Of a DNA stretch of 64,000 bases, positions 1-62,300 are shown one piece after another. Position 1 is the stretch's first letter. Each line of letters begins with the position of its first letter. The translations under genes were made by a program, and so were the position numbers. Source of the stretch: Mermis nigrescens (lineage: Eukaryota > Nematoda > Enoplea > Mermithida > Mermithidae); assembly GCA_036768485.1 (NCBI GenBank), contig JAVLUZ010000513.1:877587-941586 (forward strand), given 5' to 3'. The notes under the pieces were generated by a model. The model was not told the origin of the DNA. It made no database searches and worked only from the letters and a program-made list of their open reading frames with translations.

Positions 1-2
1 GT

Positions 3-602
3 CACATTTATGAGGAATGCTTCACGCGTCAAAGGCAAGAAACGTCTAATAATGCTAATTTTAATAATCAAGCTGATCGGAATACTAATTCTATGGTGCG
101 CGATCGCAGCCAATCGCGTTCTTTTTCGCGACGAAATCGTTCGCCATCGCGTTCGAATTCGCAGAATAGGCATCGTTCTCAATCACGCTATCGTAATTCT
201 AGTCAACATCGTTCATCTAACTATGCGAATAATGATAATCGCTTTGAAGCAAAACAATCACGATCGAATTTTTGGCAAAATCGTAATGATTATTACCAAA
301 ATTCGCGTGCTAATTATCAAAATTCGCGTTATGATAATCGTTATAATAACCAATCGCGCCAAAATACACCTTTTGTGCAATTTCCTAATGAACAACGTGG
401 CACATACTATAACTCGAGTTATCGCAGCGATAATAATTTCAATCGCCCGTATGTCACATACACTGCAGATAACCAACCCGCCATAAATGTGCCCCCACCG
501 CAGCCAACCCTTACATCTCCTCGTGATGTGAACACAGTTACTGCGAAAGACCAAGAATCTAGCGCGCGTCCTAATTTCTTCAGCGTCGCAAGAATTTCTT
601 GA
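3..602 (+). CDS. gag: Ty3/gypsy Gag, C-terminal part (partial at left edge)
   Basis: This reading frame is open from the left edge to a stop at 600-602, so only the C-terminal ~200 residues of Gag are present. The visible part is low-complexity: Arg/Ser pairs near the start, then Asn/Tyr/Arg/Gln-rich sequence and a Pro-rich end. That composition fits a basic nucleic-acid-binding tail. I see no CCHC zinc knuckle in it. It is assigned to Gag from its place directly upstream of the protease frame. The next frame is open from 487, giving a 116-base overlap in which a +1 frameshift could link Gag to the protease. The N-terminus, capsid region and 5' LTR lie outside the window. Confidence 0.7.
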   Translation, partial: HIYEECFTRQRQETSNNANFNNQADRNTNSMVRDRSQSRSFSRRNRSPSRSNSQNRHRSQSRYRNSSQHRSSNYANNDNRFEAKQSRSNFWQNRNDYYQNSRANYQNSRYDNRYNNQSRQNTPFVQFPNEQRGTYYNSSYRSDNNFNRPYVTYTADNQPAINVPPPQPTLTSPRDVNTVTAKDQESSARPNFFSVARIS

Positions 603-1569
603 AGAGTACGAACGTCTACAACGTCGTCTTGCAACTTACGAAACAATTAATCTACCTCCATCTAAGATTTTTGATCCTAATATTCCTATCGTAAGTCATG
701 CTGGGACAAATTTACCCACTATTCTCGTTAAAGTTCATGGCGTTGAGGTACCTGCTCTCATAGATACAGGTTCACAGGTCACCATGATGACCACATCAGC
801 ATTCTTACGTCTTGGTTTTAATTTACCACCTAAGCAAGTTTCACAAGTCGTGCATGGTGTAGGCGAAATCACCGCAGTCGTTCGCTATAAAGTAAATATG
901 ACCTTAACAATCGCGGAACAATCTATTTCTACCTCAGTAGCTATAATTGATCAATTGCCGGAAGACATGCTCTTAGGATATGATTTTTGTGAATCCGCAC
1001 TCATGTGGGTTAATCCTATTGAGCGTTGTGCTTTTATAAACGGCATAAAGGTTAATTTACTCTCATCTCACGAAAAATTGCAATTTCGCGCGAAACCCAA
1101 CGCAACTACCTCTGGTGTTGTGTGTGTGCATGTTTCGTTACCTGAGCCTGTTATCATACAACCTAGGCATGAATTAATTACACCTGGCTACATAAGTCAT
1201 GGTTCTTGCAATTTTGATTTCGCATTATTCGAACCAAATCCCGATTTTATGGAAAAAACTTCACTTTTTGTTGCTCCGTCTATAGTCGATGCATCACAAC
1301 CTCTAATACCTGTTCGCGTCTGTAACATATCTAAAGCACCAATTCGCATTGATTCTGGTGAAATAATAGGTTCTTTAACCACTGATGCCGAAGTCGTGTC
1401 ACATGTTTCATCCTTTGATGATAGGACACCAGAACTTTTTGCATCAATAAACAAAGCTTTAAACGGCTCCGCCGTTAATTCTAGACAGCAGCAACAAATT
1501 CGTGAACTTTGCTTAAAATACGACTCAATTTTTGCATTAAAAAATGAACCTCTCGGTCGTACCCCTTGA
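487..1569 (+). CDS. pro: Retrotransposon aspartic protease region
   Basis: This frame is open from 487 and overlaps the Gag frame to 602. It carries a retropepsin-type site, ALIDTGSQVTMM, with the catalytic Asp codon at 763, followed by the hydrophobic strand VAIIDQLPEDMLLGYDF that resembles the second conserved protease motif (hydrophobic-LLG-D/N). This enzyme would mature the polyprotein. The first in-frame ATG is at 784, after the DTG, so translation must enter by frameshift from Gag. The segment after the protease runs into the usual pre-RT linker and stops at 1567-1569, exactly where the pol frame begins. In related elements protease and RT are one frame, so this stop is probably a one-base indel in this copy, or a second recoding site. 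Confidence 0.75.
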
Positions 1570-4500
1570 TGAAACATCATATTGACACAGGGGATAATCC
1601 ACCCGTTGTTGGAAAAACTTATCGTGTTGAACATTCTAGAAGAGAATCTATGCAGAAAATTATAAATGAAATGCTTGCGGATAAAATTATTCGACCTACT
1701 ACTAGCCCATGGGCAAGTCCATTATTTCTCATTGGGAAAAAGGACGGTTCCCTTAGGCCAGTCGTCGATTATCGACGGTTAAATGACGTTACTAAAACGC
1801 AAGTTTACCCTCTTCCGCAATTAGACGATTATTTTGATACTTTAGGCAGTGCTGCATATTTTAGCACACTAGATTTGAAATCTGGATATTGGCAAATTCC
1901 ACTCGATAATAAATCTCGCGAAAAAACAGCATTTATATGTCCTGTTGGTCATTACGAATTTGAAGTTTTACCTTTTGGTTTAAAGAATGCGCCCGCAGAT
2001 TTTCAAAGACTAATGGAGCTTGTGCTCGCAGGTCTAAATTGGAAATCTTGTCTCGTTTACATCGATGACATAATTATTTTTTCACGAACTTTCGAAGAAC
2101 ATTTAAAAGATCTCGAAAATGTTTTCATCGCTCTTAAAAAGGCAAACTTACGTGTCAAGCCTGATAAATGCCATCTCGCGCATACAGAGGTAAAATTTCT
2201 TGGCCACAGCATCAGTGCAATGGGCATCGCTCCCGATATGTCTAAAGTCGCAGATTTAATCTCGTTTCCCGTACCAAAAACCGTTAAATCCTTGCAGAAA
2301 TTCCTTGGCTTAGTCCAATGGTTTAAGAAATTCGTTAAAGACCTCGCTAAAATTGCTAAACCGCTATTCCATCTTCTGCGTAAAGATGTCGAATTTTGCT
2401 GGAAGGCTGAACACCAAACCGCTTTTGAGCTTCTGAAGAAAGCATTTACATCTCCACCTATTTTACAATTACCGAAATTCGATGATGAGCACCAATTTAT
2501 TTTAACAACCGACGCAAGTAACTATGCGTTAGGTGCTATTTTGACACAAAAACACTTACCATCGAAAAATCGTTTTATTCTTAGCTACGCTAGTCGCGTA
2601 CTAAATTCTGCCAAATGTAATTATGCTACTTCGGAAAAAGAAGCGTTAGCGGTAGTGTGGGCCATCAAGCATTATCGACACTATCTTTACGGTAAAAAAT
2701 TCATTGTCGAAACTGATCATCAAGCGTTAACCTGGCTAGTAAATGTTAAAGACCCATCGAGTCGATTACGCCGTTGGGGTCTCAAATTACAGGAATACGA
2801 ATATGATATCGTCTATGTTCCTGGTGCATATAACTGCGCAGCTGATCTTCTTTCACGTCATCCTAAATATGATCATGCAGAACGAAAATATAAAGTCGAG
2901 CGCAAAAATATCGTTAACATCGCAAATTTAGAATCAGAAGATTCTGAGTCAGATGATGAATCGGTTCCACCTGACCGATCGCGCGATCACGCGCCTACTG
3001 CACCAATTAATCATCCAAATGCGCAAAATAATGTTCCTACTGCGCAAACCGATCCTACTAATTCTAAACCACCTACATTTCGTGAACGCTTATTACTTAC
3101 CGATGCCGAAAAAGCTGAAATGCTAACACCTGCGCGTTTACTCGCTGAGCAACGTGCAGATGACGAATTGCATAAAATTCGCATCGCATTGAACGATTTA
3201 ACAACGAAAAAATATCGTGACGAATTTTTTCTCGTAAACGATGTACTTTTTTGTCGTTTCCAACCTAAGCGCTCACCAACAGTCGTTCATCAAATAGTCA
3301 TACCCAAATCTTTGCGTCGTTTCATATTAACGGAATTTCATGACTCTATTTTCGGAGCTCATTTTTCATCGCGCAAAATCTTGCCCGCCATTCAAATGCG
3401 TTATTGGTGGCCGCGCATGGAAAATGATGTGATCGCGTGGTGTCGGAATTGTGATGTGTGCTTACAACGTAAGGTCGCATTAAATTCCACATCTGTTCCG
3501 ATGCAACCAATCGAAGTATCCGCACCCTTTGAACTCATTGCGTGCGATTGTTTGCATATGCCGCGATCACCCTCCGGAAATGACCAAATTGTAGTTTTTA
3601 TGGATTATTTCACAAAATACGTGGAAGCTTTTGCTGTTTCTGATATAAAAGCAACAACTATTGCAAATTTATTACTAAGAGAAATTATACCACGTTACGG
3701 AGTCCCCAAGAAATTTTTAACAGATCAGGGGTCAAATTTTACATCTACCCTAATTTCGGAAGTTTGTAAATTATTAAACGTTCAAAAAATATTTACAACC
3801 CCATATCACCCCCAGTGTGATGGGTTGGTGGAACGTTATAATCGTACATTGATTGATGGTTTGTCTAAGCTGAGTGCGCGATCACAGTATGACTGGGAAC
3901 AATTTTTACCCTTCGCATTATTTGCATACCGCGCGACTCCACAATCATCAACTAATATATCTCCTTTTGAAATGCTTTATGGTCGTGAACCAGCATTTCC
4001 TCTTGACACTTTACTCATAAATGACTTTGTGATAAATCCGAATTTACCATCTGTTGCGGAAAAATATGTCATTGATTTAAAGCTGACTTTGCAGGATCTG
4101 CATGAAATCGCGTCTCAAAATTTATCTCAAGCGCGTAAGCAGCAAAAATCGCAATATGACAAAGCCGTAACGCACACAAATTTTAATCTGTCGGATATAG
4201 TCTACCTCAATAATACTTCAGTCATTCAACCTGAAATCGGTAAACTATCACCCAAGCGTGTTGGTCCCTACCGGATTATTGACTTACCTACGCCTGAAAC
4301 TGCAAAAATCGCATATGTCTATAACCCTCTCATTATTCATCACGTTCACAGGAATAGACTTTTGCCTGAACCTAAATTACCTTATTCTGACTTAATTGTG
4401 GAAAAACACGCGTATGTCCCTGGCGATTTTGTGTTGGTAAAGTTACCACATCGCCCTCTTGCCCCGGCAGTAGTCATAAGTTTTGAGGATTTACCGGGCA

Positions 4501-4691
4501 GGGAACAAAAAGCTAAGGACAGCGCGCCTGTACGTTTATTAAATGGTTCTAAAACAGCACATGCCGTACCATTATCTAATGTTTTTCCTTTTGCAGACCC
4601 ATGGCTGCTCAAGGTACCCCCAGCAAGGAGGCATTGTTGGAGGCAGCTGGTCGCCGATGCAAATTCGAGGGACGTGTGCCCGCGTCCCTAG
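1569..4691 (+). CDS. pol: Ty3/gypsy Pol: reverse transcriptase, RNase H, integrase
   Basis: About 1040 residues. RT: FSTLDLKSGYWQI from about residue 97, LPFGLKNAPADFQ, and catalytic YIDD near residues 164-167 (codons about 2058-2069). RNase H: TTDASNYALGAIL near residue 313, then the EKEALAVVWA Glu and ETDHQAL Asp. Integrase: an HHCC zinc site (H-x6-H, then C-x2-C around nt 3450-3470), and a catalytic core with Asp in ACDCLHM, Asp in LTDQGSNF and Glu in LVERYNRT, with exactly 35 residues between the last two (DD35E). A GPY/F-type module (KRVGPYRII) follows, as in Ty3/gypsy elements. I see no chromodomain. The frame is uninterrupted from 1569. Its end overlaps ORF3 by 91 bases in another frame. 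RT-RH-IN order places it in Ty3/gypsy rather than Ty1/copia. Confidence 0.95.
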   Translation: MKHHIDTGDNPPVVGKTYRVEHSRRESMQKIINEMLADKIIRPTTSPWASPLFLIGKKDGSLRPVVDYRRLNDVTKTQVYPLPQLDDYFDTLGSAAYFSTLDLKSGYWQIPLDNKSREKTAFICPVGHYEFEVLPFGLKNAPADFQRLMELVLAGLNWKSCLVYIDDIIIFSRTFEEHLKDLENVFIALKKANLRVKPDKCHLAHTEVKFLGHSISAMGIAPDMSKVADLISFPVPKTVKSLQKFLGLVQWFKKFVKDLAKIAKPLFHLLRKDVEFCWKAEHQTAFELLKKAFTSPPILQLPKFDDEHQFILTTDASNYALGAILTQKHLPSKNRFILSYASRVLNSAKCNYATSEKEALAVVWAIKHYRHYLYGKKFIVETDHQALTWLVNVKDPSSRLRRWGLKLQEYEYDIVYVPGAYNCAADLLSRHPKYDHAERKYKVERKNIVNIANLESEDSESDDESVPPDRSRDHAPTAPINHPNAQNNVPTAQTDPTNSKPPTFRERLLLTDAEKAEMLTPARLLAEQRADDELHKIRIALNDLTTKKYRDEFFLVNDVLFCRFQPKRSPTVVHQIVIPKSLRRFILTEFHDSIFGAHFSSRKILPAIQMRYWWPRMENDVIAWCRNCDVCLQRKVALNSTSVPMQPIEVSAPFELIACDCLHMPRSPSGNDQIVVFMDYFTKYVEAFAVSDIKATTIANLLLREIIPRYGVPKKFLTDQGSNFTSTLISEVCKLLNVQKIFTTPYHPQCDGLVERYNRTLIDGLSKLSARSQYDWEQFLPFALFAYRATPQSSTNISPFEMLYGREPAFPLDTLLINDFVINPNLPSVAEKYVIDLKLTLQDLHEIASQNLSQARKQQKSQYDKAVTHTNFNLSDIVYLNNTSVIQPEIGKLSPKRVGPYRIIDLPTPETAKIAYVYNPLIIHHVHRNRLLPEPKLPYSDLIVEKHAYVPGDFVLVKLPHRPLAPAVVISFEDLPGREQKAKDSAPVRLLNGSKTAHAVPLSNVFPFADPWLLKVPPARRHCWRQLVADANSRDVCPRP
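4582..4596 (+). promoter_or_regulatory. Consensus 3' splice site just before ORF3
   Basis: The sequence TTTTTCCTTTTGCAG ends at 4596, followed by ACCC and then the ORF3 ATG at 4601 in a good initiation context (CCCATGG). A pyrimidine tract plus CAG four bases before the start codon is what one expects of an env-like spliced subgenomic mRNA, or a spliced-leader acceptor. The 5' donor would lie upstream of the window or in gag. Function is inferred from sequence only. Confidence 0.55.
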
Positions 4692-7600
4692 ATGAGTTTC
4701 GTTCGGCGTTGACCAGTATGGCTTTAGAGCGGGGATTGGTCGTACCCAACCCGCTGCCGCAACACGATACTCGCCGTGTTGGCGGTCTCGATTCTCTTAC
4801 CGCAAAATGGATAAAGTATAAGGCAACACATAAAATCGCAAATCACAGAAAGCGCATAAATGATCAACAACTCTGGTGGGAGAATCGGCTTGGTAGAAGT
4901 CCTTTGGTAACCCCTCGCGTACCAAAGAATAGGCTTTTACCCACCGTCATAGTCTCCGACGACCAGAAGTCATTTGGCGCCATTTTGGCATTAATTCAGC
5001 CATCGAATATGACGAATGGCACTTTATTCCTAGGCTATGACTCCGAATTTGTGAATGATAGAAAAGGCAGGCATTATAAGACCTGGGACCTGCGTTTCCA
5101 GCAACTCTGTCCCACTTACCAGGACCTCCATGGCCCATTCGTACGCTACGTCCAAGTGGCGAGCGCGACTGGCCATGTGTTCTGTTGGGATTTAGCGAAG
5201 TTTCCGCAACCTCCGTTCGGGCTTCACCAGTTGCTAGAAACACGCTTACCTAACGTGTATATGGTGTGTTATGACCCGACGCAAGATCGACTTGCGTATT
5301 TCCATGTCTACGGGCCTACATTCGAGGAAATTGTTGCAATTCCCGATGCAGAAATTCGCAATAAACTGCACTGGAAAGACCCATTTATTGCAAACTTCAT
5401 CGATATTCAGCCGCTGGCGAGAACATTTACTCGTCGTTTACGCATTAAAGCGCAATCGCATTCGTTAAAGCGTTTGGCAGAGTTCTTTTTCGACATGTAT
5501 ATTGATCCGAACGCGCCTGACAACTTCGGACAGGCGTGGAGCTTACCCTTAACTCGGGACATGCAGCATTATCTCGCGATGGACGCCCTCATAACTATCG
5601 ATGTTTTTATCTTGATAGAAGGGTGCTCGCAGGATAATCGCATTACTGACGATAGAAAGCCCATTTCGGTTTCTTTCGTAGGCGATGAGTTGTACATTAA
5701 GGCTAGTGGCCCGAAAGCCAGAGTACGTGTACCATTGTCGTCTAGCAAACCACCACCAGGGCAGTCGACCAGCACAGCTGTTGAACCTGAAGTTGACTCA
5801 AATGGCGAAGAGTTAATTCTAGCTGAGGATTTTTATTGCCCGGCTCCGCAACCACAAGTAGCGATAGCGGCAGCCACCACCATTGCCTCAGTAACGGAAG
5901 CGTTGGCTCACGCTAACGTGTTTGACAACCCTGACTTACAAGTGCAGGCTTCGCAAACCGTTGCCGACACAGTTTCGGGCCCGGTAAATGCGCCTGACAC
6001 GGAACCTAAGTCGAAACCAACCAGTACGAGTACACCAGCTTCGGTATTTTCTTCGCAAACCGATATTCCATATGATTCGCCTATGCTGGGTGTAGAACCA
6101 TCGATCTCCACTGAAGACGATGATTTATCTCCCCAACGTTTAATTATGGCGTTATCTGACACCAAGGCGGCAACACAGGCTAACGTGACGCCACCGCGCG
6201 TAACACGCGGAGCAATGGCTCGAAAAGGGAATGTTACCGTTTCGCAACCGATTGTCTCGCAATCGCTTGCGGCGGTTCAACAAGCTCCCCTGGGTATCAG
6301 TGCACTCGGACCTTTGCCGACTCTTCAGCCGGTCAGGGCAGAGCAGCAGGCTGACCCAGATGTCATCATGACGGAAATTATCGGTTTTCCGCCACAACCG
6401 CAACGTACATTAGCCGCACACGAAGTACCGCATGTAGCATTATACACGCAAGTAACGACTCAACCCGTGTCACAAGGTATGACGGCACCGGAGACTCGTT
6501 TCACGGCTCCTATGGCCATGACGGGTGTGTCTAGTACCGTGGCAAATTTACATTCACAGGCTACGCAAAGCCAACCATCGAATTTGGAAGTCGCAATACC
6601 TGCGCACGTGCAAGCTATTCGCGATCAAATGGCCGCGAATGATAATGCGAGAATTCAAAATCGCTCGCGTTACGTGCAGCATTTTTTCACAATGATGGAA
6701 AATATGACGCGCGAACCACCGTGCACCATTGCGCCAATCGTTTTGCACGATTTACGCTCCTATTTGGGCGAAGTCGCAGGATCGCGTTTGTACGATCAGT
6801 TGATCGAAGCTGCTCAAGTGTACTTCGATCGAGTGTACGCAATTCATTTGCAGTATGCGAATTCGACGGATTCGCCTTCGCGCCCTTTAGTGTGGTCTAC
6901 GCTCGCACAGCCCTTAGCTGATGCCGATCTTGAGCCCGCACCTCGTTTCATCAGCGATATGAGCGTTTTTAATCGATTATTCTATCCCGACCAATACTTC
7001 GTGCGTATTCGGTTTTTTATCACAACCGGTATGATGTTGTACGAAGTTCCGCTCGAGTATTTGGTCGTACACCCACATCTCGACGCACCAAGCAAAGTGA
7101 TCGACGGCGTGACACATCAAATTTCTCCGGATTTATATCCGCATCGAATGTCACCTGCGCCGGATCATCTAGCGCCAATTCTAATACCGACACGCCAGAT
7201 GGTCGATATTTTCGATACCTTCCGAGAATTTCAGTCGTTATACGAATCGGAGTATCGACACATGACGGTCTTTTCTTCGATAGACGTCATGCGCGCTACA
7301 GCGCTTTTGGAATTTCTGGATAGAAAATTCCACTATTTCGCATACGCCTATGGCAATGCCGGAATAGGTTGGCGTATGACGGAACAGCTGCGTCGCATGT
7401 TACGCGTAGCGTTCCTTGGCGAATCTTACACGCCATCTCCACGTGAGGCTTTTCCGGAATTCCCGGACCTAACAGCACGCATTGAAAGTCCTCATGTTTT
7501 GCATAACATGATTAGGCAAATTCGGTTAGCTACCGACCCGGCACTCGAAGTTCCGGCTCAGTTCGATCGTTTTCGAGGTCGTCAAAAATCCGTATTTTAC

Positions 7601-8182
7601 CTCAAACATCGAATTCAAGACGAATTGGAAAAAATTCGTAAAGAAAGACGACAGGCATCCTCGCAGGACCCAAGCGGATCCGTGGCGAGCCTTGATATGC
7701 CCGAAGTCGATCTTTCCTTGGAAGCACAGATTGCAATGCGTCGAACACGCATGACTATCGAGCAGCGTGATCGTGAGAATTTGGCTACGGAAATGCCACG
7801 GCGTGCGACAAAGTTACGCGCCGCCGGTTCTCTTGCTGAGACTTCAGAAGTTCGTCATATGCCAGAAGACAAACACAAGGCAAAGTTGAATCGTTTTTAC
7901 GACACTAAATCCGAGCACACTTTGCGTCGGTTAAAAAATTTGGAAAAACAACGAGTGAGAAGACTCGTTCAAGCTGAGGTTGCAGCTAAATTGAAAGCGC
8001 GTTTAGGCCCAAAGGGGATCGAGGCGGCAAGACCCGCAGTCATCCCGGCAGCGCTATGCGCAAACGCACCATCGTTCGCAATCACAAGCACAGCAACAGA
8101 CACATGTAAAACCGCATGTACAGCAATACACAAGACCGCAGACCCAACCGCGGCAACAGCAGCAATTTACGGAATCGCGTGA
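4601..8182 (+). CDS. Retrotransposon ORF3 with DEDDy 3'-5' exonuclease domain
   Basis: The frame encodes 1193 residues from ATG 4601. Residues ~140-340 show an RNase D/WRN-like exonuclease fold. Exo I is FLGYDSEFV (Asp147, Glu149). Exo II is the YDPTQD segment (Asp225 or Asp229). Then comes an SLKRLAEFFFDMYID helix, a Trp-x2-PLT stretch, and Exo III HYLAMDA (Tyr324-x3-Asp328). All DEDDy catalytic positions can be assigned, so an active single-strand 3'-5' nuclease is likely. Residues ~385-665 are a Pro/Thr/Ala/Gln-rich linker, ~670-1010 an unassigned helical region, and ~1010-1140 a charged coiled-coil-like Lys/Arg/Glu stretch. There is no signal peptide or membrane segment, so it is not env. 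The stop at 8182 looks like an indel: another frame continues the basic, Gln-rich tail to 8747. DEDDy ORF3s are known from bdelloid rotifer LTR elements. Confidence 0.85.
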   Translation: MAAQGTPSKEALLEAAGRRCKFEGRVPASLDEFRSALTSMALERGLVVPNPLPQHDTRRVGGLDSLTAKWIKYKATHKIANHRKRINDQQLWWENRLGRSPLVTPRVPKNRLLPTVIVSDDQKSFGAILALIQPSNMTNGTLFLGYDSEFVNDRKGRHYKTWDLRFQQLCPTYQDLHGPFVRYVQVASATGHVFCWDLAKFPQPPFGLHQLLETRLPNVYMVCYDPTQDRLAYFHVYGPTFEEIVAIPDAEIRNKLHWKDPFIANFIDIQPLARTFTRRLRIKAQSHSLKRLAEFFFDMYIDPNAPDNFGQAWSLPLTRDMQHYLAMDALITIDVFILIEGCSQDNRITDDRKPISVSFVGDELYIKASGPKARVRVPLSSSKPPPGQSTSTAVEPEVDSNGEELILAEDFYCPAPQPQVAIAAATTIASVTEALAHANVFDNPDLQVQASQTVADTVSGPVNAPDTEPKSKPTSTSTPASVFSSQTDIPYDSPMLGVEPSISTEDDDLSPQRLIMALSDTKAATQANVTPPRVTRGAMARKGNVTVSQPIVSQSLAAVQQAPLGISALGPLPTLQPVRAEQQADPDVIMTEIIGFPPQPQRTLAAHEVPHVALYTQVTTQPVSQGMTAPETRFTAPMAMTGVSSTVANLHSQATQSQPSNLEVAIPAHVQAIRDQMAANDNARIQNRSRYVQHFFTMMENMTREPPCTIAPIVLHDLRSYLGEVAGSRLYDQLIEAAQVYFDRVYAIHLQYANSTDSPSRPLVWSTLAQPLADADLEPAPRFISDMSVFNRLFYPDQYFVRIRFFITTGMMLYEVPLEYLVVHPHLDAPSKVIDGVTHQISPDLYPHRMSPAPDHLAPILIPTRQMVDIFDTFREFQSLYESEYRHMTVFSSIDVMRATALLEFLDRKFHYFAYAYGNAGIGWRMTEQLRRMLRVAFLGESYTPSPREAFPEFPDLTARIESPHVLHNMIRQIRLATDPALEVPAQFDRFRGRQKSVFYLKHRIQDELEKIRKERRQASSQDPSGSVASLDMPEVDLSLEAQIAMRRTRMTIEQRDRENLATEMPRRATKLRAAGSLAETSEVRHMPEDKHKAKLNRFYDTKSEHTLRRLKNLEKQRVRRLVQAEVAAKLKARLGPKGIEAARPAVIPAALCANAPSFAITSTATDTCKTACTAIHKTADPTAATAAIYGIA

Positions 8183-8747
8183 GCGTTCCGAGGCGTATTC
8201 TCAGGCCGATGCTGGTCATCTGTCGCGCTCGCGACAGCAGCAGCCTTATGAATACCGCCGTCCGCCACAGTCGAACCGCGGAACTCATCGGGGCCGGTCG
8301 CAATCCCGCCAACGTCAATGGGACCAGTATCAATCACCGTTGGAGCAAAGCCAACCAGCCACCGGGGGTTATCAGCCACAACCTCGACCGGGTCCACTTT
8401 TGCCAAAACCGTGGCCTGTTACGCAACAACAACAGCGTCCACGCGAACCTTCTCGACAACGCACTTACGGTTTTACGCCGGAGCAATTATTTACTCCGAC
8501 GCCACCCATACCGCGTCGTTACGCAGACGATTACGAGGACGACGACGATTTTGAGGACGACGATCGACCCGTCGATCCGCATCGCCGCCTACGCCAACAT
8601 CTGTACGGGCGTAGGCAATCGCCATATCAGTATCGCGAGCGTTTGAATACGCGTCGCGAACCGGAATCGGATCAAGAATATTTTCAACGACACCGACGTC
8701 GCGGAAAATCTTATGGCTCGAAGGCCAAATACCGCGACGATTATTAA
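8007..8747 (+). pseudogene. Displaced C-terminal tail of ORF3
   Basis: A second frame is open from 8007 to the stop at 8745-8747. It encodes a Gln/Arg/Ser-rich basic region, an acidic patch at ~8530-8570 (Asp/Glu run) and an Arg-rich end. Composition changes smoothly from the coiled-coil end of ORF3 into this frame, whereas the ORF3 frame after ~8030 becomes Ala/Thr-rich and stops at 8182. The simplest reading is one indel between 8007 and 8182, with an intact ORF3 of about 1380 codons. The tail resembles a nucleic-acid-binding extension. Confidence 0.6.
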
Positions 8748-9403
<656 letters not shown>

Positions 9404-9473
9404 GGCGTTGCGGACGCCAGAGTTGAGGCGTTGCGAACGCCAGAGAGCCGAGTTGTAGAGCGTCGCCGACGCT
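9404..9473 (+). repeat. Three consecutive stem-loops near the 3' LTR
   Basis: Three GC-rich hairpins lie in a row: 9404-9418 (GGCGT stem, one near copy), 9427-9441 (GGCGTT-GCG-AACGCC, perfect 6-bp stem) and 9459-9473 (AGCGTC-GCC-GACGCT, perfect 6-bp stem). The first two are tandem copies of a GAGGCGTTGCG-ACGCCAGAG unit; the third keeps the structure with a different sequence. Confidence 0.65.
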
Positions 9474-9531
9474 AGTGTCGATGGTGTACCCCCGAAAAAA
9501 TTCTCCACTTCGTTACTAATTTTTTCTATAC

Positions 9532-9540
9532 GTGGGGGAG
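9532..9540 (+). promoter_or_regulatory. Polypurine tract (plus-strand primer)
   Basis: GTGGGGGAG lies directly before the TG start of the LTR at 9541, the expected place and composition for a Ty3-type polypurine tract. Confidence 0.7.
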
Positions 9541-10570
9541 TGTAACTGCGAGAGTTACACGTTTAGGCGAACATGCCTTAGCAGTTCGCAATAGCCATAA
9601 CATAGCCAATACTAGTAGCTATCTATGATAGTGCACTGTGGGCTATGCCTTCGGTCTTCCCATTATTTTCCCAAACTTTCAATAATAAAAAACATTTAGA
9701 TACTTGTCCGGTATCGTAGAGCTAAGTGTATGATAATAGTAATTGTTTAATGCATACCGCTGTGAATCGATAATATTCGATCTGAGATAAAAGTCATTAT
9801 CAGTATTACGTTAAATTGATCGTTGTTTTAATTGTACTGTAATGGTCCTTGAGGCCAGTGTATGGAAGGTCGTGTTAGTTTTTTGGCTTGTTTTGGTTTT
9901 TTCGTTGGTCGGTTATTCTCGACTGTACATAGTCATTTTTCTTTTGCGTATTTGTTTTCCCGGCTATAGGCCGTGTGTTCTTCGTTGAATAAAATCTTAG
10001 AAAACCAACCCAGTGGTTTTGGATATACCGAGGGTTAGGTCGGCCATCATCCCTTCGTCGAGGACTTCCACCCATCTAGTGGACTGATAGGTAAATTCCG
10101 TATGATAGTTTTCTCCATTCGAAAATCATAATTTATTTCTCAAGCCTAAAAATTGATCAAAACTATTATCTAATCTTTAAGGATGATTGATCAGCATAGA
10201 GCTCGTTGTTGTTGTTTTCATTGTTCAGCGTGCTACACAAACTAGGAACCAAAAACATTTCTGATCAGGCACTGATTGAAAATAAGTTAAATATACAACT
10301 TGAGCTTGAGATAGGTCAACTGACCTCCGCGGCAAATTCCGAGACTAGGTAGGTAGCCTTAGGTCTTAGGGCGTAGCTGCTGAGATCACCCGACGAAAAG
10401 CAGCCAGCAATATTAGGGCTGAGGGGATCGAAGCCGTAAGGTCTGTAAGGGTCCAAAGATCGAAAGCCTTAGAGCCGCGCGATCGGGGCCAGCACTAAGC
10501 GCAGACTTAAGTACCTACGTACCTAGGTAAATCTCGCAGGTGAATGTTAGTACGGTTCGTATCTGTGATG
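9541..10570 (+). mobile_element. 3' LTR of the Ty3/gypsy element (right end not fixed)
   Basis: The LTR starts at 9541 with TGTAACTGCGAGAGTTACA, whose first and last seven bases are inverted copies of each other. A polyadenylation signal AATAAA is at ~9987. The other LTR is outside the window, so the right boundary cannot be set. It is at least ~10,060. A diverged inverted relative at 19,888-20,703 stays alignable up to ~10,570, suggesting a long LTR or an adjoining repeat. Confidence is high for the start and low for the end. Confidence 0.6.
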
Positions 10571-13220: not shown

Positions 13221-17785
<4,565 letters not shown>

Positions 17786-19887: not shown

Positions 19888-20703
19888 ATCTACTGAAGCG
19901 ATACGGACAAGGCTAACATCACCTTCGGGACTTACTTTGGTACTTAAGCTGCTCTCAGCGCTGGTCAGGTTCGCCGAATCACGGGACGATTCTGAACCAG
20001 TTGACCCTTGTAGACCTACGGCTTCAACTCCCTAGATCCTAATATTGCCGACCGCTTCTCGTCGGGAGTTTCAGCAGCTACGCCCTAAATCCTAGAACTT
20101 GTACCTACCTAAATCCCGGGAAGCTCGCGAGGTCAGTTGACCTATCTCAACCCAACTCAAGTTGATAATTTAACTTCTTTTCTGAGGTCCGGGTAAAACG
20201 AAAATGTTTTGGTTCCTAATTCCTGTAGCACTTTGGAATTCGAATACAACACCAGCGAGCTCTCAACTGGTCAGTCATCATAAAACATTAAATAAGTTTT
20301 TAGCTAATTTTGGGTTGATGAAAGATTAATAGAATTTCGATGAAAGATAAGACCATAAATTAATTACCCTCTCAAGCTCTACTAAAATCCAAAATAAAAT
20401 CTTCGTCGCAGTCGCCCTGCCAACCCTCGATATATATTATCCCTGGGTGGTGATTTTCCACTCTTATTACAAGAATGTACAACCACGGCTGTAAGTCGGG
20501 ACAAAGCAAAAAACACTAAAGCTAAAACAAAACGACGATCAAAAGTCAGAACTCCGACTGACTATCCCCTACTGGGATGACTACAGTAAAACAAAGTCAA
20601 CGAAAACAAACTAACATTGGTTAGAATTACTTTTTACTAAATAGAATGTTCTAGAATCTTACAAGCTCCGATTGGGCTGATTATCGCAAGGTTCGACAGG
20701 AGT
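19888..20703 (-). repeat. Diverged inverted relative of the LTR region 9,850-10,570
   Basis: Read on the minus strand, this repeats the order of 9,850-10,570: an AATAAAATCTT-like block with TAACCCTCG-TATAT, ACACGGC-ATA-CGGGA-AA, then TTTTGGTTCCTA, GAGATAGGTCAACTGACCTC, TAGGGCGTAGCTGCTGA and CTTAAGTACC. It ends near 19,888. It is interrupted at 20,704 by a hAT-like insertion. It is probably a solo LTR or LTR fragment of a related element. Confidence 0.55.
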
Positions 20704-32660: not shown

Positions 32661-35600
32661 CTGGAATATTTTCTTAGTTATGCGATTTTTAAAGCAACAC
32701 CGAAATAATCGCGGAATACAGTAAAATGACAGACGAATCTTGATGTGAGAGTTGGAAGGGACCGTTAATTAAGGCTTGAAGGATCCAATTTATTTCTTGT
32801 ATATTCAGATAAAGTTGAATGCTACATGTAAAATCGAAAATGAGGAGTCAATTAGAACTCTGATTACTCAATTTCCTCATTTATTCTTCAGATGAATTTC
32901 TTACTTGTCGCATACTCTTAAATTTTATAAGTAAGTTTATTCAATTTCCTGCTCTTTTTAAAAATTTACTTGATAAATAGTAGGCTAACTAATACTGATT
33001 TGAAGTAATTATTCCAAATATCTGACTGATGCAGTGTTTTTTGTACAAGGTCCGTTTGTAGATGTACAAAGATCGTCCCCAAAAGTCTTTGTACATTTTG
33101 TACACCTAAATTTTTGGGTACTAAAATATGGTACAGTAGCGATTTACGTCTTGTAAACGCAGAGTTGTTCGACTTTTGGTAGTGTATTTTAGCTAATTTC
33201 TGGGTCTTTAAAGGCAAAAATCACTAAGAATCGTCTTAAAACGGCGCAAAGCGCCGAAAAATTTGACATTTTTCCTTTTGGAATGCAATTTCTGCCATTA
33301 TAAAGATATAGAGCACACAATTACTCATTTCGGCGCAAAGCGCCAAAAATTTTTGCGAAATTTAGACTTTTTGCAATTTTTGTCGTCCGGAAAATCTTAT
33401 GTACATGTACAAAGACGGTCCTGAAAAGTCTTTGTACAACATCGGGAAAAATCTTTGCCGAATGTAAAAAAAAACAGTGGACTGATGATCCCAAATACAG
33501 GTACATGCGCTTGCCGCTTAGGTGTCAAGTCATTTTTAAAACAATTCGGAATGAGGGGACCAATCGAAGACAAAAAATTAAAATGTTTAACGAATATCCC
33601 GAAACGTGAGACTGCGAGTACTTGTAAGTAAGCTGCCTCTAGAAAATGATTAATAAACCATTCGAAATTGAAATACAAACTTTTTCAGTATATTTGATAA
33701 AAACCATCTACAAAATCGGGATACTCCCTACAACTGATTTTCGAAAAAGAATTTTTCGTTTTTTCGCGATTTTTTAATATTTTATTTATATTTAAACTTA
33801 TTTTTTGATACCATTGGATAGAGCTTGATGAGAAACGTCGAACAATAGTGTTTTCCCGATCTACCACCAATCGTTCGACCTTTGAAAATGTTCGGATTAA
33901 ACCCAGACCCCAGAATTTAAGTCCTGTCATGTATTATAATGAGTTGGCTCTGTCGAATCGAAATTCTTTTATTGATCTGAAAAGGATTTTTCAGATTTTA
34001 AAATTTCTCAATTTCTCAAAATTATCAAATCAAATTTTTGACCTGTTCGAATGATCCGACCGACGATCGCACTTGATCAAACAATGCTCCGTACTCCTCG
34101 TTGACTCTCTGCATTTCGTTTATGAGTAAGGCGACCGATTCGAGCTTTTTCAAAGCGTTCTTTATCTGATGCATGAGATTTGATTTGGCTAGGCCTTTGT
34201 TGCTTTTAAGCACAGATTTAATTTGCCGCAAAAACAACGGATATCTCATAATCCATTGCACGGGTTTAATTAGATACGACTCGAATGCTTTCGAAGGTTC
34301 TTTGCGGAAATTGAGATTTTCTAGAAAACGTCGCAGAGCTCGGGTTTCGCCTAGAAATTAAGAGCAATGTAAATAATAGTGAAAAGAATACGAACAAATA
34401 AATCGGTAAAAGTAAATAAACAAGTAAATAAAAATTGAAAACAAATTTAAATCTTGCGAGCATGTGTGTCTGTTAGTCCTCTAAAAGCGATGCTCTTATA
34501 TTAAAGTAAGCAGAATGAGCAGAATCGGCGTTTCTTTTACAGGGTGCCAAAAAAGGGCTACACGGCACCCCAATATTATAGCTTATAACCATACGTGGGC
34601 AGCAAGAAAATTCTGGGGGGTTAGGATGGGTATAATTGTTAAAAATGTTACTCAAAATAAAATTCTGGGGGTCTACAGAAATCTGGGAGGGAAGGTTCTC
34701 TTCTTCTGGGGGTACAGTACCCCACGCCCATGTGTAGTTATAACTTCTGGCAAATTCGGACATAAAATTTTATGCCTACTTTTATTGGATAGATAAAAAT
34801 GTCGTTGTATAAATCGTGCAGAAAATTTTGGCAAGCCGCAAGCGGTTGGCGCGCTACAGCGAATTGTTTACACCCTATTTTGATATTGTTAAAATTTAAA
34901 ATGTATGTCCGTTTCTGTCATCACTTGGCTCACCCATATGACAATATTCTGCAGTTTTTGGACATAGTAGGAAGGAGTACCCTCTCTTGGATACAACCAA
35001 TGTGCTCAAAATTTTTTCGACTAGAGATCAAAAATGGGTAATTAAAGAGTCGGTAATGGAACACAAAGCAAAACAATATCAAATTATGGTATAAAAAACC
35101 GTTACAGTGCACGGACCGCTATGTTTTGGACAAAATTTTTCACACAGTTCGAACGAAAACATTTTTATCCATCTAATGAAACCGGTTTCAAAGATTTATG
35201 CTGACATTAGCTTAAGTTATTATGTAATTAAGGGGTTTAGCCTTTTTGTTGATCCACTCTGTACATGAGACACAATTTAGAACCTTTTCTCTCGTTTTGA
35301 TGGACATAAAATTAGACCGAAAACGCAAGGTGTATTAATCAAATACAGAAGTGGTCAGTCGAGTTTTCACCAAATTTAAATGATGCGACCTTTTTATTCT
35401 GTTGAAATTGAATAACCACAACATAGTTAGAGTTCTTAGAGCCTTGAAAATCCGGACCACCACCTCCACGCGGTGCAAGGTGGGCAGAGGTTAGATCCGT
35501 CGACCCTCTGGCTAACAGTGGCCGTCCCTCAACGTCAGGCTCTGCGACAAGCCGGTTGAGGATGAAACTTCACGTCGCATCTCTTCATGCATTCACATCG

Positions 35601-38600
35601 AAATTTTACACGCCATGCTAGGGCGCACTCGTGAGGCGACGCGCGCCGTCTTCGCCTGGACAACGTGACAAATGGGCGAGGGCTACCTGCTCAAGGACGG
35701 AGTGGGCTAAAGAAGCTAGTCCAACCTATCCGACTAGCGACGATCAACATTGACACTCTCACGGGTCGCAGCCGAGAACTAACGGATGTACTGAAACGCC
35801 GGCGCGTCGACTTCACCTGTGTCCAAGAGACGAAGTGGGTTGGAGCGAAGGCGAAAGATATTGGAGAAGGATATAAAATGATCTACAATGGAAAAACCAC
35901 CAACCGAAATGGCGTAGCAATCATAAAAAGTCAGAAATTCCAGTGACCGGATAACAGAAGTCACCCGTATTTCAGACCGCTTAATGTCAATCAGGGTTGA
36001 TACCGGGAACGACATACTGCGAATTATCTCATGCTATGCGCCTCAAACTGGATGCCCTGAAGAAGAGAAAGACGAATTTTGGGAAAGCCTTGAGACTTAC
36101 CTTCAGACCTGCAGTGCTGATGAACGATTATTCATTGGTGGAGATCTAAATGGTCATGTAGGAAAAGCCAGAGAAGGCTACCAGCAAATCCATGGAGGTC
36201 AAGGCTATGCTACTCGTAATGACGATGGGGGTCGCATCTTTGACTTTGCCGAAACTCACGATCTGGCGATTGTTAACACCTTTTTCAAGAAGCGACCATC
36301 TCACATCATCACATACTGCAGTGGCGCCCATTGCACCCAAATTGATTACTGATTGATAAGGAGACAAGACATCAAACTGGCGATAGATGCGAAAGTTATA
36401 CCATCAGATAACATTTCACCTCAGCATCGCCTTTTGGTCCTCGATTTCCAATTAACCCGGCAACGTCTTAACATTCCAACAACAAAAACTGAACGCATCA
36501 AATGGTGGAAACTGCCTGAGCACCAAGTTGACATGAAATCTGCACTATCCACGTTACGTGTCGATTACGAACTTCATCCCTCAGACATCTGGGAGTGCAG
36601 CAGCAGCACACATAAACACATGTGCAACAACCATCTTGGGAAAAACAAAGCCAGGCAAACGCTACATTGACAAACAAACCTGGTGGTGGAACGACAATGT
36701 GCAACAAACAATCAAGGCTAAGAAACTAGCTTACAAAGCATGGTTTCACTTCGCGAAATGCTGATGATTTTCAACAGTACAGAAGCCTGAAATCAGCAGC
36801 TAAGCGAGCAGTTGCCAAAGCCAAAAATGCACACCACAAAAACTTATACGATCAATTGGAAACACCTGAAGAAGCGCAAACAAGATCTTCAAGCTAGCCG
36901 CCTCCCGCCATCGCTCATCCACCCAGGACATCGGCCACGTCATGAACATCAAAGACGCGAACCATCAACCATTAAGAAATCCAACAGACATACTGCATCG
37001 CTGGAAAGATTATTTTGACGAAGTATGCAACGAGGAATATCAGCACTCTTTACCCAACACTGAAGCGGTATATGGACCAGTGCTTCCAATAACAACTGCC
37101 GAAGTCACAGACGCGATTCGAAAAATGAAAAACGGCAAAGCCACTGGCTCAGACGATATACCAGCTGAAGTGTGGAAGTTACTTGGCCAACAAGGTGCAG
37201 AATTCCTTGCCAAACTATTCAACAAGATCATCGAAGAAAACGCTGTGCTGCCAATATGGCAGACAAGCGTCACTGTTCCCATATGGAAAGGAAAGGGGGA
37301 CGTCAGTGAATGCTCAAACTACCGACCCATCCGCTTGCTGTGCCACACTATGAAAATATTTGAACGCGTGGTTTACAATCGCATCCGAAACATTGTCACA
37401 GTCACACCTAACCAGTGTGGTTTTGTAAAAGGATGCAGTACAACAGACGCAATCCATGCCACTCGGTTATTGATGGAAAGGTACCGTGAAAAGCAAAGAA
37501 GCATTCACATAGCATTCCTTGATCTCGAAAAGGCCTCTGACAGAATTCCCCATGCTCTCATATGGCACTCTCTTCGCCTACATGGTGTACCAGAAACATA
37601 CATAAGTTTAATTCAGTTGTTTTACCAAGGCGTAACAAGCTCAGTCCGATGTGCTGTTGGAACTTCGAACCCATTCGACATTCATGTAGGTGTGCACCAG
37701 GGATCAGCATTGTCACCATTACTGTTCATCCTTTGCATGGATACAGTGACAGCAGACTTACATAAACCGCACCCATGGACACTATTATACGCCGACGACA
37801 TTGTTCTGGCTGACGAATCTCGACAGGGTCTCGAGCAGCAAACGCAAAGGTGGAAAACTCGTTTGGAGAACTTCGGATTAAGGCTTAATATCAAAAAGAC
37901 GGAATATCTCGAATGTGGAACCCAAAACGACGGCTCAATCAAAATTGATAACCAACTGCTAAACAAGGTTACCCAGTTCAAATATCTCGGATCACAACTT
38001 TCCTGGGACTGCGACACACTACATGATTCAAGGTCGAGAATCAATGCAGCCTGGATGAAGTGGCGCCAAGTCAGTGGAGTTCTATGCGATCGCAAAATCC
38101 CGACATATTTGAAAGCAAAAGTGTACAAAATGGTAGTCAGACCAGTTGCATTGTATGGATCCGAATGCTGGCCAGCGGTAACAAAACACGAGCAAACCCT
38201 GCATGCAATGGAGATGAAAATGCTCAGGTGGTCGCTCAGTTTCACCAGACTAGACCATGTTACAAATGTAGATGTCCGATCACTCCTCGGAGTGGCCCCA
38301 ATACCAGAGAAAATGAGAGAAACGCGGCTTCGATGGTATGGCCACGTACTACGCAGCAATGATCAACCAATTACAAAGACGGCGTTACATCTAAGCCCTG
38401 TTGGCAGACGACCACGTGGACGACCGAAGAAACGATGGCTCGACCGTCTAAATGAGGACATGCGGAACGTAAACGCCACCCCACGAGACGCTACTGACCG
38501 TGCAAGATGGAGATCAAAATGCAACCAAGCGGACCCTGCCCCACGGCGGGATAAACGCTAAGCAGAAGAAGAAGAAGTTAGAGTTCTTAGAACTGACCGC

Positions 38601-59364: not shown

Positions 59365-62300
59365 TGTTTGTCTCAAAGACCTGAGCAAGTAAATTTGCTA
59401 ACAATACCAAAGCGTTTTGGGTATTTATAAAGTTGATTTTTATGTGTCTGCGTTTTACCAGTCCGGCTGCTCAAAAGGCTCCAGCTAGCTTTCGTGTGGA
59501 TCAAAGACGAAGAAACAAAAATTTCTAACTTTATTCTAAATTAGCATATGAAGATGACTATAGAAACTGAATAATTAAACATTTGTGTGTGATTCAAGCA
59601 CTCTCTCGAAAAAGTGTAATTTGACTCGTTTACGGCAATAATATCTCCCTATGTGCTTCATAACATTTTACTTCTGCTTTTTCTCGAGATTCCAGGTTTA
59701 TGGCTCACAACAGATAAGCCAAGCCGCAATTCTTATCATTCACATGTAGAAAGTTGAGAAAACAGGTTAAGGAACAATCATTAAAGAACATAATGTGACA
59801 TTCGAAGCCTATGCTCCGTAAAAGCATGCAAGATCGATGTAGATAAAAGGGCGGATTAAACGAATCAAAATGCGACTTTTGGATTTTTAAAACCAAAAAT
59901 AAAGCTGTGCCACCACTATTGGCTAATACTTTTTTGTATTCCGACCTCATGCATTTTCTAATTTTCTCCCCTTTTCAACCTTGGTTCCTCTTTGCCCTTT
60001 ATTATTTTTTCTTTTCCTTACAACCATTCTTGATTGTCAGTTGGGAGTACGGTCGCAGGTTTAGTTTTTTCGTGCTCTTAGAGCCGTAGGTCGCAAAATG
60101 GGATCAATCGGAAGTCCAGTAGAGAGAGCCTTAGTGCATAATTCGGGCGTTGTAAGTGTCTCGCCGAGGTTTTCGTTGGAGGCCACGTGTTTTTTCGATT
60201 TCGACGATTACCCTTACGATATACAGCGTTGCCCCTTGGTTTTGGGCTCCTGGGCTTACACTATGTCCGAAGTGGACCTCTTCCCTTTCATAGAGGAATT
60301 CGGAGCCCATGCACAGTTAACCATCAATGACACGAAAGATTTGGTTAGCAACTGGTTACTGATCGACGTTAGCTACGAGCTGACTTACTGGAATGCCTTC
60401 GCGCACGCAAGGAACACCATGAAGCCACCTCATGAACAAGCTCATTTAGTGAGTAACGTTTTTATTAGATCAATATTTTTATCATTACACTCCGCTTGTC
60501 ACTTGACCAATTGACTTTTTTTCGTTGTATTTGTCTCCTGCTTGATTGGTTTGCGTGTGTGAGTGTTTTTTGTGAATTTATGTGCAATTTGGCAGTTTTT
60601 AAGCTGCAGAACTTTTCCATCTCCGTGAAATTTTTCTGCGCAAAGTTTCTGAATTTATTCGTGAAAACGAGTAATTTCTTTAAAGGTTTTCGTAGAATAT
60701 AACGTTTGGCTGAAGATACAGCGATACGTTCCGTATTTCAATCATTTGATTTTGGCACCGGCTCTGGCCACTTCAGCATTTACACTTTTGATCTATTGGT
60801 GCACCTCTTACCGATTGTCAATGTGCCTCGCTTTAGCCAACGCAGCCTTGCAAATATTGTTCTTCGACAACCTTCTAAAAAAGCTGCCGCCGAGTAACGA
60901 GGATACGACACCAAGAATCGGTATTAACGAGAACCATAAGTGGTCTTGGGGGCTGACCTTCCGTAAAATAGCTGCTGATCCCCGCAAAATGGCTGCGATG
61001 CGACCCTCCCCAGCATTAGAGATTTTTTGAAAAATTGTAAAAAGCGTGGTTTTTTTAAAGCGTTTTTGGCTCATTTTTGACTCAAAAGTCTCAAATTTTC
61101 GGCGCTTAACGCCGTATACACATTAATGACTATACTTTGTCGAATTTTATCGATTTTTCAAATTTTTTCAAATTTTTTTGTGTTTTTATATACTAAAAGG
61201 AACAAGCATTGTCTGAAACGTCTAAAAAAGTGTTTTTGACGTCTACTCGACGTTTTTAAGCCAAAAAAAGCACTTTTTGGAAATTTTTGAGCCTGATCCC
61301 CCAGAATTCTCATGCTGTACATGTATGACCAGATCCACAACTTTTTTTCTAGCGATTGGATAATAAATGACTAATTAATAATATATCATAATAAAATCTG
61401 ATAATTTAATAGTGTAAGATCTGACAATCTATATCTAATCTGCAAGGTGCATTTTCGCTATAGCTCACTAAAATCTGCGGTCAAACATTTAAATGACGAT
61501 TGGAAGACAATGCAAGGACTATTGCATATGTACATGTTCACTTTTCATTATTTTCCTTTTTATTCTTTAAAAAATGGAAAAGAGCATCAGGGGTAAAGAG
61601 TGAAATCAGATTCGTGAAGAATTGTTACTCGTTATAAGCCTATGATTAGGCATATTTAAGATTCGAATTCTAGACAACATACGAATGAATATTTTTGAAA
61701 CAATGTTTTCATACACAATTTAGAAATTGATTTTATCATTAATTGCTAAATTCTGCACCATAAATTTTCTCGCTCACTTTATCGATGACGCTATGCAATA
61801 AGGAAAAGTAGAATGTTCCTTAAATTTTCACAACTTGTGTAAAAAACTGTTCACTACGCTATTTTTAAATGTGTAATCCCGAGAACCGGGCCCGTATCCA
61901 GGATTCGGCAAAGGGGGGGGGGCGGACCAAACATAAATTAGTCTATATCTCGGGAAATTCGTCGGGATAGCTCGCAAGAACCGCATTTTTCGACGTTTCT
62001 CGACATGCTCCATCCACTAAATTGATAAAATATGAACTTTCCGTTAGAAAAATCTTTATACTCAAAATGCTATAAAAAATGTTTTTTGGTCGCGCTTGAG
62101 CTAAAATTATGGGAAATACTTCATATCTGGCGCGAAGCGCCGAAAATTTGAAGAATCTACGTCAAAGACTGGCAATTTTTCCATCTTTTCGCCGCACATA
62201 CCTTAATTTTTTTCCTGGCCAAGTAGAAGAGGGGAGGGGCGTTTTTTCCCCGCCCCCTAAAGATGGCCCTGCCGAGCACCTATTTCTTCGTGTTTCGTCG

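Follow-up and report, generated by a model that had tools for sequence, protein, structure and literature searches.

Does a retrotransposon make use of a 3'-5' exonuclease of its own? This question is raised by a stretch of 64,000 nucleotides from the nematode Mermis nigrescens (contig JAVLUZ010000513.1, positions 877,587 to 941,586 of the forward strand), referred to here as the window. The window holds most of a Ty3/gypsy long terminal repeat (LTR) retrotransposon, whose 5' end lies beyond it, and downstream of pol, in the position of env, the element carries a third open reading frame (ORF3). An initial annotation, made before any database search, had proposed that ORF3 encodes a DEDDy 3'-5' exonuclease, and this was borne out by a profile of relatives, by the residues kept in the domain and by selection among copies. 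We suggest that the ORF3 exonuclease, produced from a spliced mRNA, may trim the element's own replication intermediates, and we give this overall reading a probability of about 0.45. The features of ORF3 are listed below, with the ratio of nonsynonymous to synonymous substitution abbreviated as dN/dS.

4601..8182, + strand: ORF3, env position; 1193 codons in the window copy (1200 from stop to stop)
4916..5635, + strand: predicted DEDDy 3'-5' exonuclease domain, residues 106-345, with D147, E149, D229, Y324 and D328; PF01612 E-value 0.0043, profile of relatives 57.2 bits
6551..7630, + strand: second, hydrophobic-rich region of ORF3, residues 651-1010; dN/dS 0.107
8007..8747, + strand: basic tail of ORF3, rich in Q, R and S; in another frame in the window copy, in frame in the 1381-codon copies

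The exonuclease domain of ORF3

ORF3 is open for 1193 codons, whereas no open run was longer than 302 codons in 500 sequences simulated by a Markov model. PF01612 was matched with an E-value of 0.046 by the whole of ORF3, 0.0043 by residues 130-345 and 0.0016 by residues 241-345, and residues 105-260, the N-terminal half of the domain, matched no Pfam family by themselves. The Pfam score of the window sequence alone would amount to no more than a lead; membership in PF01612 is claimed through a profile of its relatives. The genome was searched (a single assembly of 524 Mb in 860 contigs; copy counts throughout are lower bounds), and PF01612 gave 79 matches at an E-value of 1 or better, with 46 above the cut-off. 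Dozens of shorter third ORFs, mostly located just downstream of gypsy integrases, exceeded the Pfam cut-off (E-values to 3.6e-10), and all five open-frame ORF3 relatives that were scanned lay above it (3.6e-10 to 3.6e-5). A profile built from eight relatives, with the window sequence excluded, matched residues 91-350 of the window ORF3 at 57.2 bits, while the best of 1000 shuffled sequences reached 5.2 bits.

The best 30 of the 79 loci were taken as L023-L052. With the ORF3-type profile, 27 of them scored at least 88 bits in the best frame, including the eight from which it had been built. L027 scored 38.9 bits and L023 and L039 showed no match; these three loci are probably host genes divided into exons. 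When the ORF3 of L051 was used as the query, 117 matches were obtained at an E-value of 0.001 (749 candidates, 91 scored), some of them being pieces of one locus. A joint profile that included the window sequence was compared with solved structures and matched the WRN exonuclease (2.8e-11), EXD2 (6.5e-7) and NrnC (2.2e-6), followed by Egalitarian (4.4e-5) and a mut-7 homolog (4.8e-5). The transposon domain shares with the WRN exonuclease domain (PDB 2fbt, 2e6l) the pattern W...LT....YAA.DA around the Tyr and the last Asp, although the WRN domain belongs to a host helicase. Unlike E. coli RNase D, the ten aligned transposon proteins have an insert following the first Glu, in which Trp162 is invariant.

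The catalytic positions named in the initial annotation were retained for Asp147, Glu149, Tyr324 and Asp328; it had left the remaining position as Asp225 or Asp229, and the alignment identifies Asp229 as the catalytic residue, this column being invariant over 10 aligned rows and that of Asp225 nearly so. All five residues were unchanged in 10 of 10 copies of the window family. Among the other loci, 22 cover the five columns within a single open frame, and 20 of these read D-E-D-Y-D (L032 and L036 do not). As judged from these profiles and alignments, the ORF3 domain almost certainly belongs to the DEDDy 3'-5' exonuclease family, and it is presumably catalytically active.

Several other searches were negative. 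Neither ORF3 nor the exonuclease piece matched the protein database at an E-value of 1 or of 10, in a word-based search that can miss distant relatives, and phmmer searches of the PDB with either query gave chance matches only. No relative was found in viral contigs by ORF3 or pol or by the alignments of pol and of the exonuclease, in the genome contigs searched with pol, or in scans of NCBIfam and PHROGs. Three weak PF01612 matches of this genome with open frames of 705-866 codons (G000:C719:258457, C765:175796 and C11:615279) possibly represent more families with a long ORF3.

Copies, selection and recurrence

The genome search gave 39 scored copies of ORF3, including that of the window, with 89-100% identity (from 3526 first-look candidates), and 29 of the 39 had no stop within the match. 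Pol sequence lay directly upstream of ORF3 in all seven copies inspected, although one of them (C51) had only the 3' part of pol. The initial annotation had named a lack of other copies linking ORF3 to pol as a refutation of its proposal; this link is seen repeatedly in the genome. ORF3 was 1381 codons long in L004 to L008, 1193 in L002, 1169 in L003, 1383 in C69 and 1414 in C452. Because intact copies read 1381 codons, the frame of the window copy was judged to be broken near 8010; the protein of about 1380 codons described in the initial annotation is read in one frame in L004-L008, but not in the window copy. GC content at third codon positions was 0.475 for ORF3 and 0.322 for pol, a difference in codon usage that would fit a separate origin of ORF3 and is no proof of it. 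Scans of the family libraries with residues 651-1010 found no family or relative, and the C-terminal part of ORF3 scored no higher than shuffles against the C-terminal parts of the ORF3s of other groups. In L051, positions 3109-3420 of the minus strand are 57% alike to residues 787-891 of the window ORF3; this piece lies antisense beside the ORF3 of another group, as a remnant of a related element.

Selection was estimated as pooled Nei-Gojobori dN/dS; pairs share history, and the values are descriptive, without error bars. For ORF3, 10 of the 39 scored copies were used (the first eight by score, with C69 and C452), giving 45 pairs. The ratio was 0.126 for the whole of ORF3 over 1135 codons, and within it 0.172 for the N-terminus, 0.048 for the exonuclease, 0.248 for the linker, 0.107 for the second region and 0.063 for the basic region. 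A comparison of ORF3 with pol, as the initial annotation had proposed, was made on the same six copies for both genes, with C51 dropped for lack of part of pol. Here the ratio was 0.050 for the exonuclease and 0.047 for pol, with 0.034 for the reverse transcriptase (RT) and RNase H, 0.014 for the integrase core and 0.254 for the ORF3 linker. The exonuclease is under purifying selection about as strong as that on pol overall, and the linker is loosely constrained.

The domain is not confined to the family of the window. Among the best 30 PF01612 loci, pol queries detected a gypsy pol on the same strand upstream of 21, and the addition of integrase pieces of a second group raised this to 23. In this second gypsy group the DEDDy ORF3 follows the integrase directly (L025, L026, L028-L030, L033, L034, L037 and L042-L044). 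An RT tree, made by a quick method, contained 70 of the 120 pol relatives listed and five rows of this genome, and the DEDDy domain recurs behind two separate gypsy pol groups of one genome. The best topology of the exonuclease tree joined the window family and the second group (87/85, unstarred). The alternatives joining the window family to the first group (p-value of the approximately unbiased test 0.226) and the first group to the second (0.136) gave values by which no topology was rejected. Since the exonuclease changes about as little as pol and recurs in a second group, ORF3 likely performs a job that the element needs.

Expression and proposed role of ORF3

How ORF3 might be expressed is suggested by the sequence immediately before its start codon.

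4576..4596, + strand: predicted 3' splice site with a branch-like CTAAT, a pyrimidine tract and GCAG; separated from the ORF3 ATG by four bases

The site at 4596 was the only one of its class (11 of 12 pyrimidines before YAG) on the + strand of window positions 1-9540, where 0.3 would be expected, and it was identical in six copies. Positions 4446-4565 of pol had the lowest synonymous diversity of 25 segments (0.021 as against 0.054-0.185), which is a weak sign by itself. Inspection by eye of eight related loci found acceptor-like ends in L025, L028 and L038, located either at the first in-frame ATG or ahead of it, with no clear case in the other five. An acceptor-like site just before the ORF3 ATG therefore points to an env-like spliced mRNA, from which ORF3 is quite probably expressed.

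The protein made from such an mRNA would have the exonuclease close to its beginning and would end in a basic, Q/R/S-rich tail, for which RNA binding is predicted. The WRN-like DEDDy exonuclease would trim the element's cDNA or RNA at the 3' end, either ahead of integration or while it proceeds. We favour an internal role in replication because the dN/dS of the domain is very low, with none of the rapid divergence common in proteins that are in conflict with the host, and because its closest solved relative is the WRN exonuclease, an enzyme that acts on DNA 3' ends. That the substrate is the element's own replication intermediates and not host RNA is put forward tentatively, at a little under even odds; trimming of the element's own 3' ends is nevertheless the likeliest of the roles considered, followed by attack on host small RNAs and then by a part in the handling of genomic RNA.

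In the second of these roles, ORF3 would be a counter-defence factor whose exonuclease trims or destroys host small RNAs or their precursors, as in mut-7, Nibbler or EXD1. The profile matches to the mut-7 homolog and to Egalitarian are in keeping with this, the module is found in two gypsy groups of one genome, as would be expected of a transferable anti-silencing gene, and a silencing role is discussed by the authors who described DEDDy ORFs in rotifers (PMC5408684). However, the dN/dS of the domain lacks the signature of an arms race, although the core of a nuclease might be conserved in a role of this kind as well, and we consider this role unlikely. A still more doubtful role is that of a mainly RNA-binding regulator resembling CERV of the C. 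elegans element Cer1, which would act in export or packaging of unspliced genomic RNA and use the fold for binding or for trimming RNA ends. The basic tail would suit such a protein, and a predicted splice site means that genomic RNA must escape splicing. CERV itself is a nematode precedent for an extra LTR-retrotransposon protein made from a spliced mRNA, and it is needed for export of genomic RNA; the likeness to ORF3 is drawn from its description, and the available part of the source names no nuclease in CERV (PMC10309623). Pure binding, moreover, would not require the five catalytic residues that are kept in every copy of the window family aligned.

The env position and the predicted env-like splicing could also be taken to indicate an envelope-like protein with an incidental nuclease-like stretch. 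ORF3 matched no env family in Pfam, and hydropathy, calculated for copy L005 only, revealed no transmembrane-like stretch (the best 19-residue mean, 1.68, fell inside the exonuclease core), which makes an envelope function very improbable. The low Pfam score of the window copy might, finally, be attributed to chance resemblance or to a decayed host gene fragment without function. This was rejected, since none of the 1000 shuffles reached the profile score, 39 copies could be scored, and the dN/dS over the 1135 codons of ORF3 is 0.126.

Several observations weigh against an exonuclease that trims the element's own intermediates. In the window the PF01612 match amounts to 17.3 bits (18.7 for the shorter piece), below the curated cut-off of 23.6; the profile of relatives gave only 10.6 bits for E. 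coli RNase D, a distantly related cellular enzyme; and a single-sequence AlphaFold model of the exonuclease domain had a predicted local distance difference test score (pLDDT) of 41. An acidic residue has been lost in L032 and L036, which belong to one family, and in L031 and L041 among five frame-broken loci; catalysis is therefore not kept everywhere, or those copies are dying. The exonuclease is slightly less constrained than RT-RNase H and the integrase core, and the whole-ORF3 ratios of the closest pairs with the window copy range from 0.26 to 1.21, which are derived from few changes and are as expected of neutral recent differences. The exonuclease tree does not separate inheritance together with pol from exchange. 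The choice of DNA ends as the substrate is weak because DEDDy proteins, such as mut-7 and RNase D, also act on RNA, and the large remaining portion of ORF3 could determine the function of the protein.

The rest of the element and its known counterparts

The other parts of the element in the window are as follows.

3..602, + strand: 3' part of gag (RS-rich tail), an ORF; gag begins, and has its CCHC zinc knuckle, upstream of the window
532..1569, + strand: aspartic protease region of pol (DTG), in a frame different from that of gag; PF13650 1.9e-12
1548..4691, + strand: RT, RNase H and integrase; RVT_1 1.4e-36, RT_RNaseH 3e-35, Integrase_H2C2 2.9e-19, rve 1e-11
4422..4595, + strand: PWWP-like module at the integrase C-terminus; PF00855 E-value 0.00041, 21.2 bits, below the cut-off of 25.6
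9532..9540, + strand: polypurine tract adjoining the 3' LTR, seen in the sequence
9541..10550, + strand: 3' LTR (TGTAAC...), the final approximately 50 bases of which were not found in the window copy

The whole element is about 14.3 kb long, with LTRs of about 1.05 kb. In L010, a genomic stretch that extends upstream of the window, the 5' LTR lies about 3.8 kb upstream of the window and the gag CCHC motif is at position 4979. Profile matches in the frames of the window gave the domain order protease-RT-RNase H-integrase with gypsy-type domains, and an LTR pair was present in six of seven copies examined, none being found for C51. Over approximately 1010-1070 bases, the two LTRs of each of the six pairs differed at 2 to 13 mismatched positions, with 0 to 11 gap openings, small differences that indicate recent movement of the element. 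TGT...ACA ends and 4-base flanking repeats were seen by eye in four copies (C44, C787, C457 and C69). The assignment to Ty3/gypsy made in the initial annotation is upheld by the order of the pol domains, the LTRs, the polypurine tract and the flanking repeats; as to the extent of the element, the window does not include its 5' LTR or the greater part of gag. The window copy is not intact: the end of its 3' LTR is missing, the frame is broken near 8010, as noted above, and the protease-RT frame is broken near 1566, where other copies are open.

The end part of the 3' LTR (10136-10400) and an inverted stretch elsewhere in the window (20055-20323) are 73% alike; the latter may be a related LTR, or the two may share a repeat. 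Non-LTR retrotransposon remains, with weak endonuclease matches and an RT frame that is open over 563 codons, occupy 35635-38561. Pfam matches mark probable host exons at 60065-60514 (ligand-binding domain of a neurotransmitter-gated channel) and 34025-34357 (RhoGEF), and a long TA simple repeat at 15445-15604 was detected as inverted repeats.

The integrase of the element ends in a module, absent from the initial annotation, that resembles a PWWP domain. A profile of three relatives matched the module of the window at 19.2 bits, the best of 2000 shuffles reaching 6.1 bits, and PF00855 was matched above its cut-off by the three nearest database relatives (P0001-P0003) and by L038 and L051. An AlphaFold model with a pLDDT of 68.7 and PDB matches for the module agree with a PWWP fold. 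The tail is common to P0001-P0003 and other gypsy elements of the genome; no match to PWWP was found among the three integrase pieces of the second gypsy group that were scanned. Its dN/dS was 0.181 in the six copies, at very low synonymous diversity. The window family reads P-L-A-P where P0001-P0003 read P-F-W-P, so that the motif Trp, which in the P-W-W-P motif helps to build the aromatic cage, is replaced. Chromoviruses carry chromodomain integrases, and the element of the window resembles them in having a chromatin-reader-type fold at the integrase C-terminus, although the fold is PWWP-like rather than a chromodomain and its motif Trp is replaced. The host factor LEDGF directs HIV via its PWWP domain. 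The PWWP-like tail offers a testable idea, in that the element itself would carry such a module, whereas HIV uses the LEDGF of its host.

DEDDy ORF3s are known from the LTR elements Juno and Vesta and the Penelope-like Athena elements of bdelloid rotifers (PMC5408684), a precedent that the initial annotation had cited and that this paper confirms. Our search of titles and abstract starts of open papers (subscription articles and preprints aside) returned no other report of DEDDy ORFs in LTR elements, and none describing a PWWP domain on a Ty3 integrase. As in the window element, the DEDDy ORF of Juno and Vesta lies downstream of pol and occurs in more than one retroelement lineage per genome. 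The two cases differ in several respects. The rotifer motif is reported as changed to DEED, whereas the window family has D-E-D-D with the Tyr. Juno and Vesta carry a dUTPase between protease and RT, whereas none was found in the window element by Pfam scans of 532-1566 (protease families only) and 1566-4688. No deviation from neutral evolution within a genome was seen by the rotifer authors, who sequenced env-like and GDSL ORFs for this purpose, whereas the pooled ratio of the window family is low. In the window family, moreover, the exonuclease occupies a sixth of the 1381 codons of its protein, and the integrase has a PWWP-like module as its tail.

The DEDDy third ORF of M. nigrescens is the same kind of gene as that of the rotifers, with differing features, now in another group of animals. 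In a broader interpretation, which we regard as unlikely, the exonuclease would be a transferable module for anti-silencing or end processing, turned into an essential third gene by separate gypsy lineages of one nematode, one of which pairs it with an integrase bearing a PWWP chromatin reader of its own; if true, such retroelements would form a class equipped with a nuclease as well as a targeting domain of their own making. The present case adds evidence of function to what had been a rotifer curiosity, since selection across copies constrains the nuclease about as strongly as it does pol. A compact domain and many recent copies make the need of a retrotransposon for a 3'-5' exonuclease directly testable.

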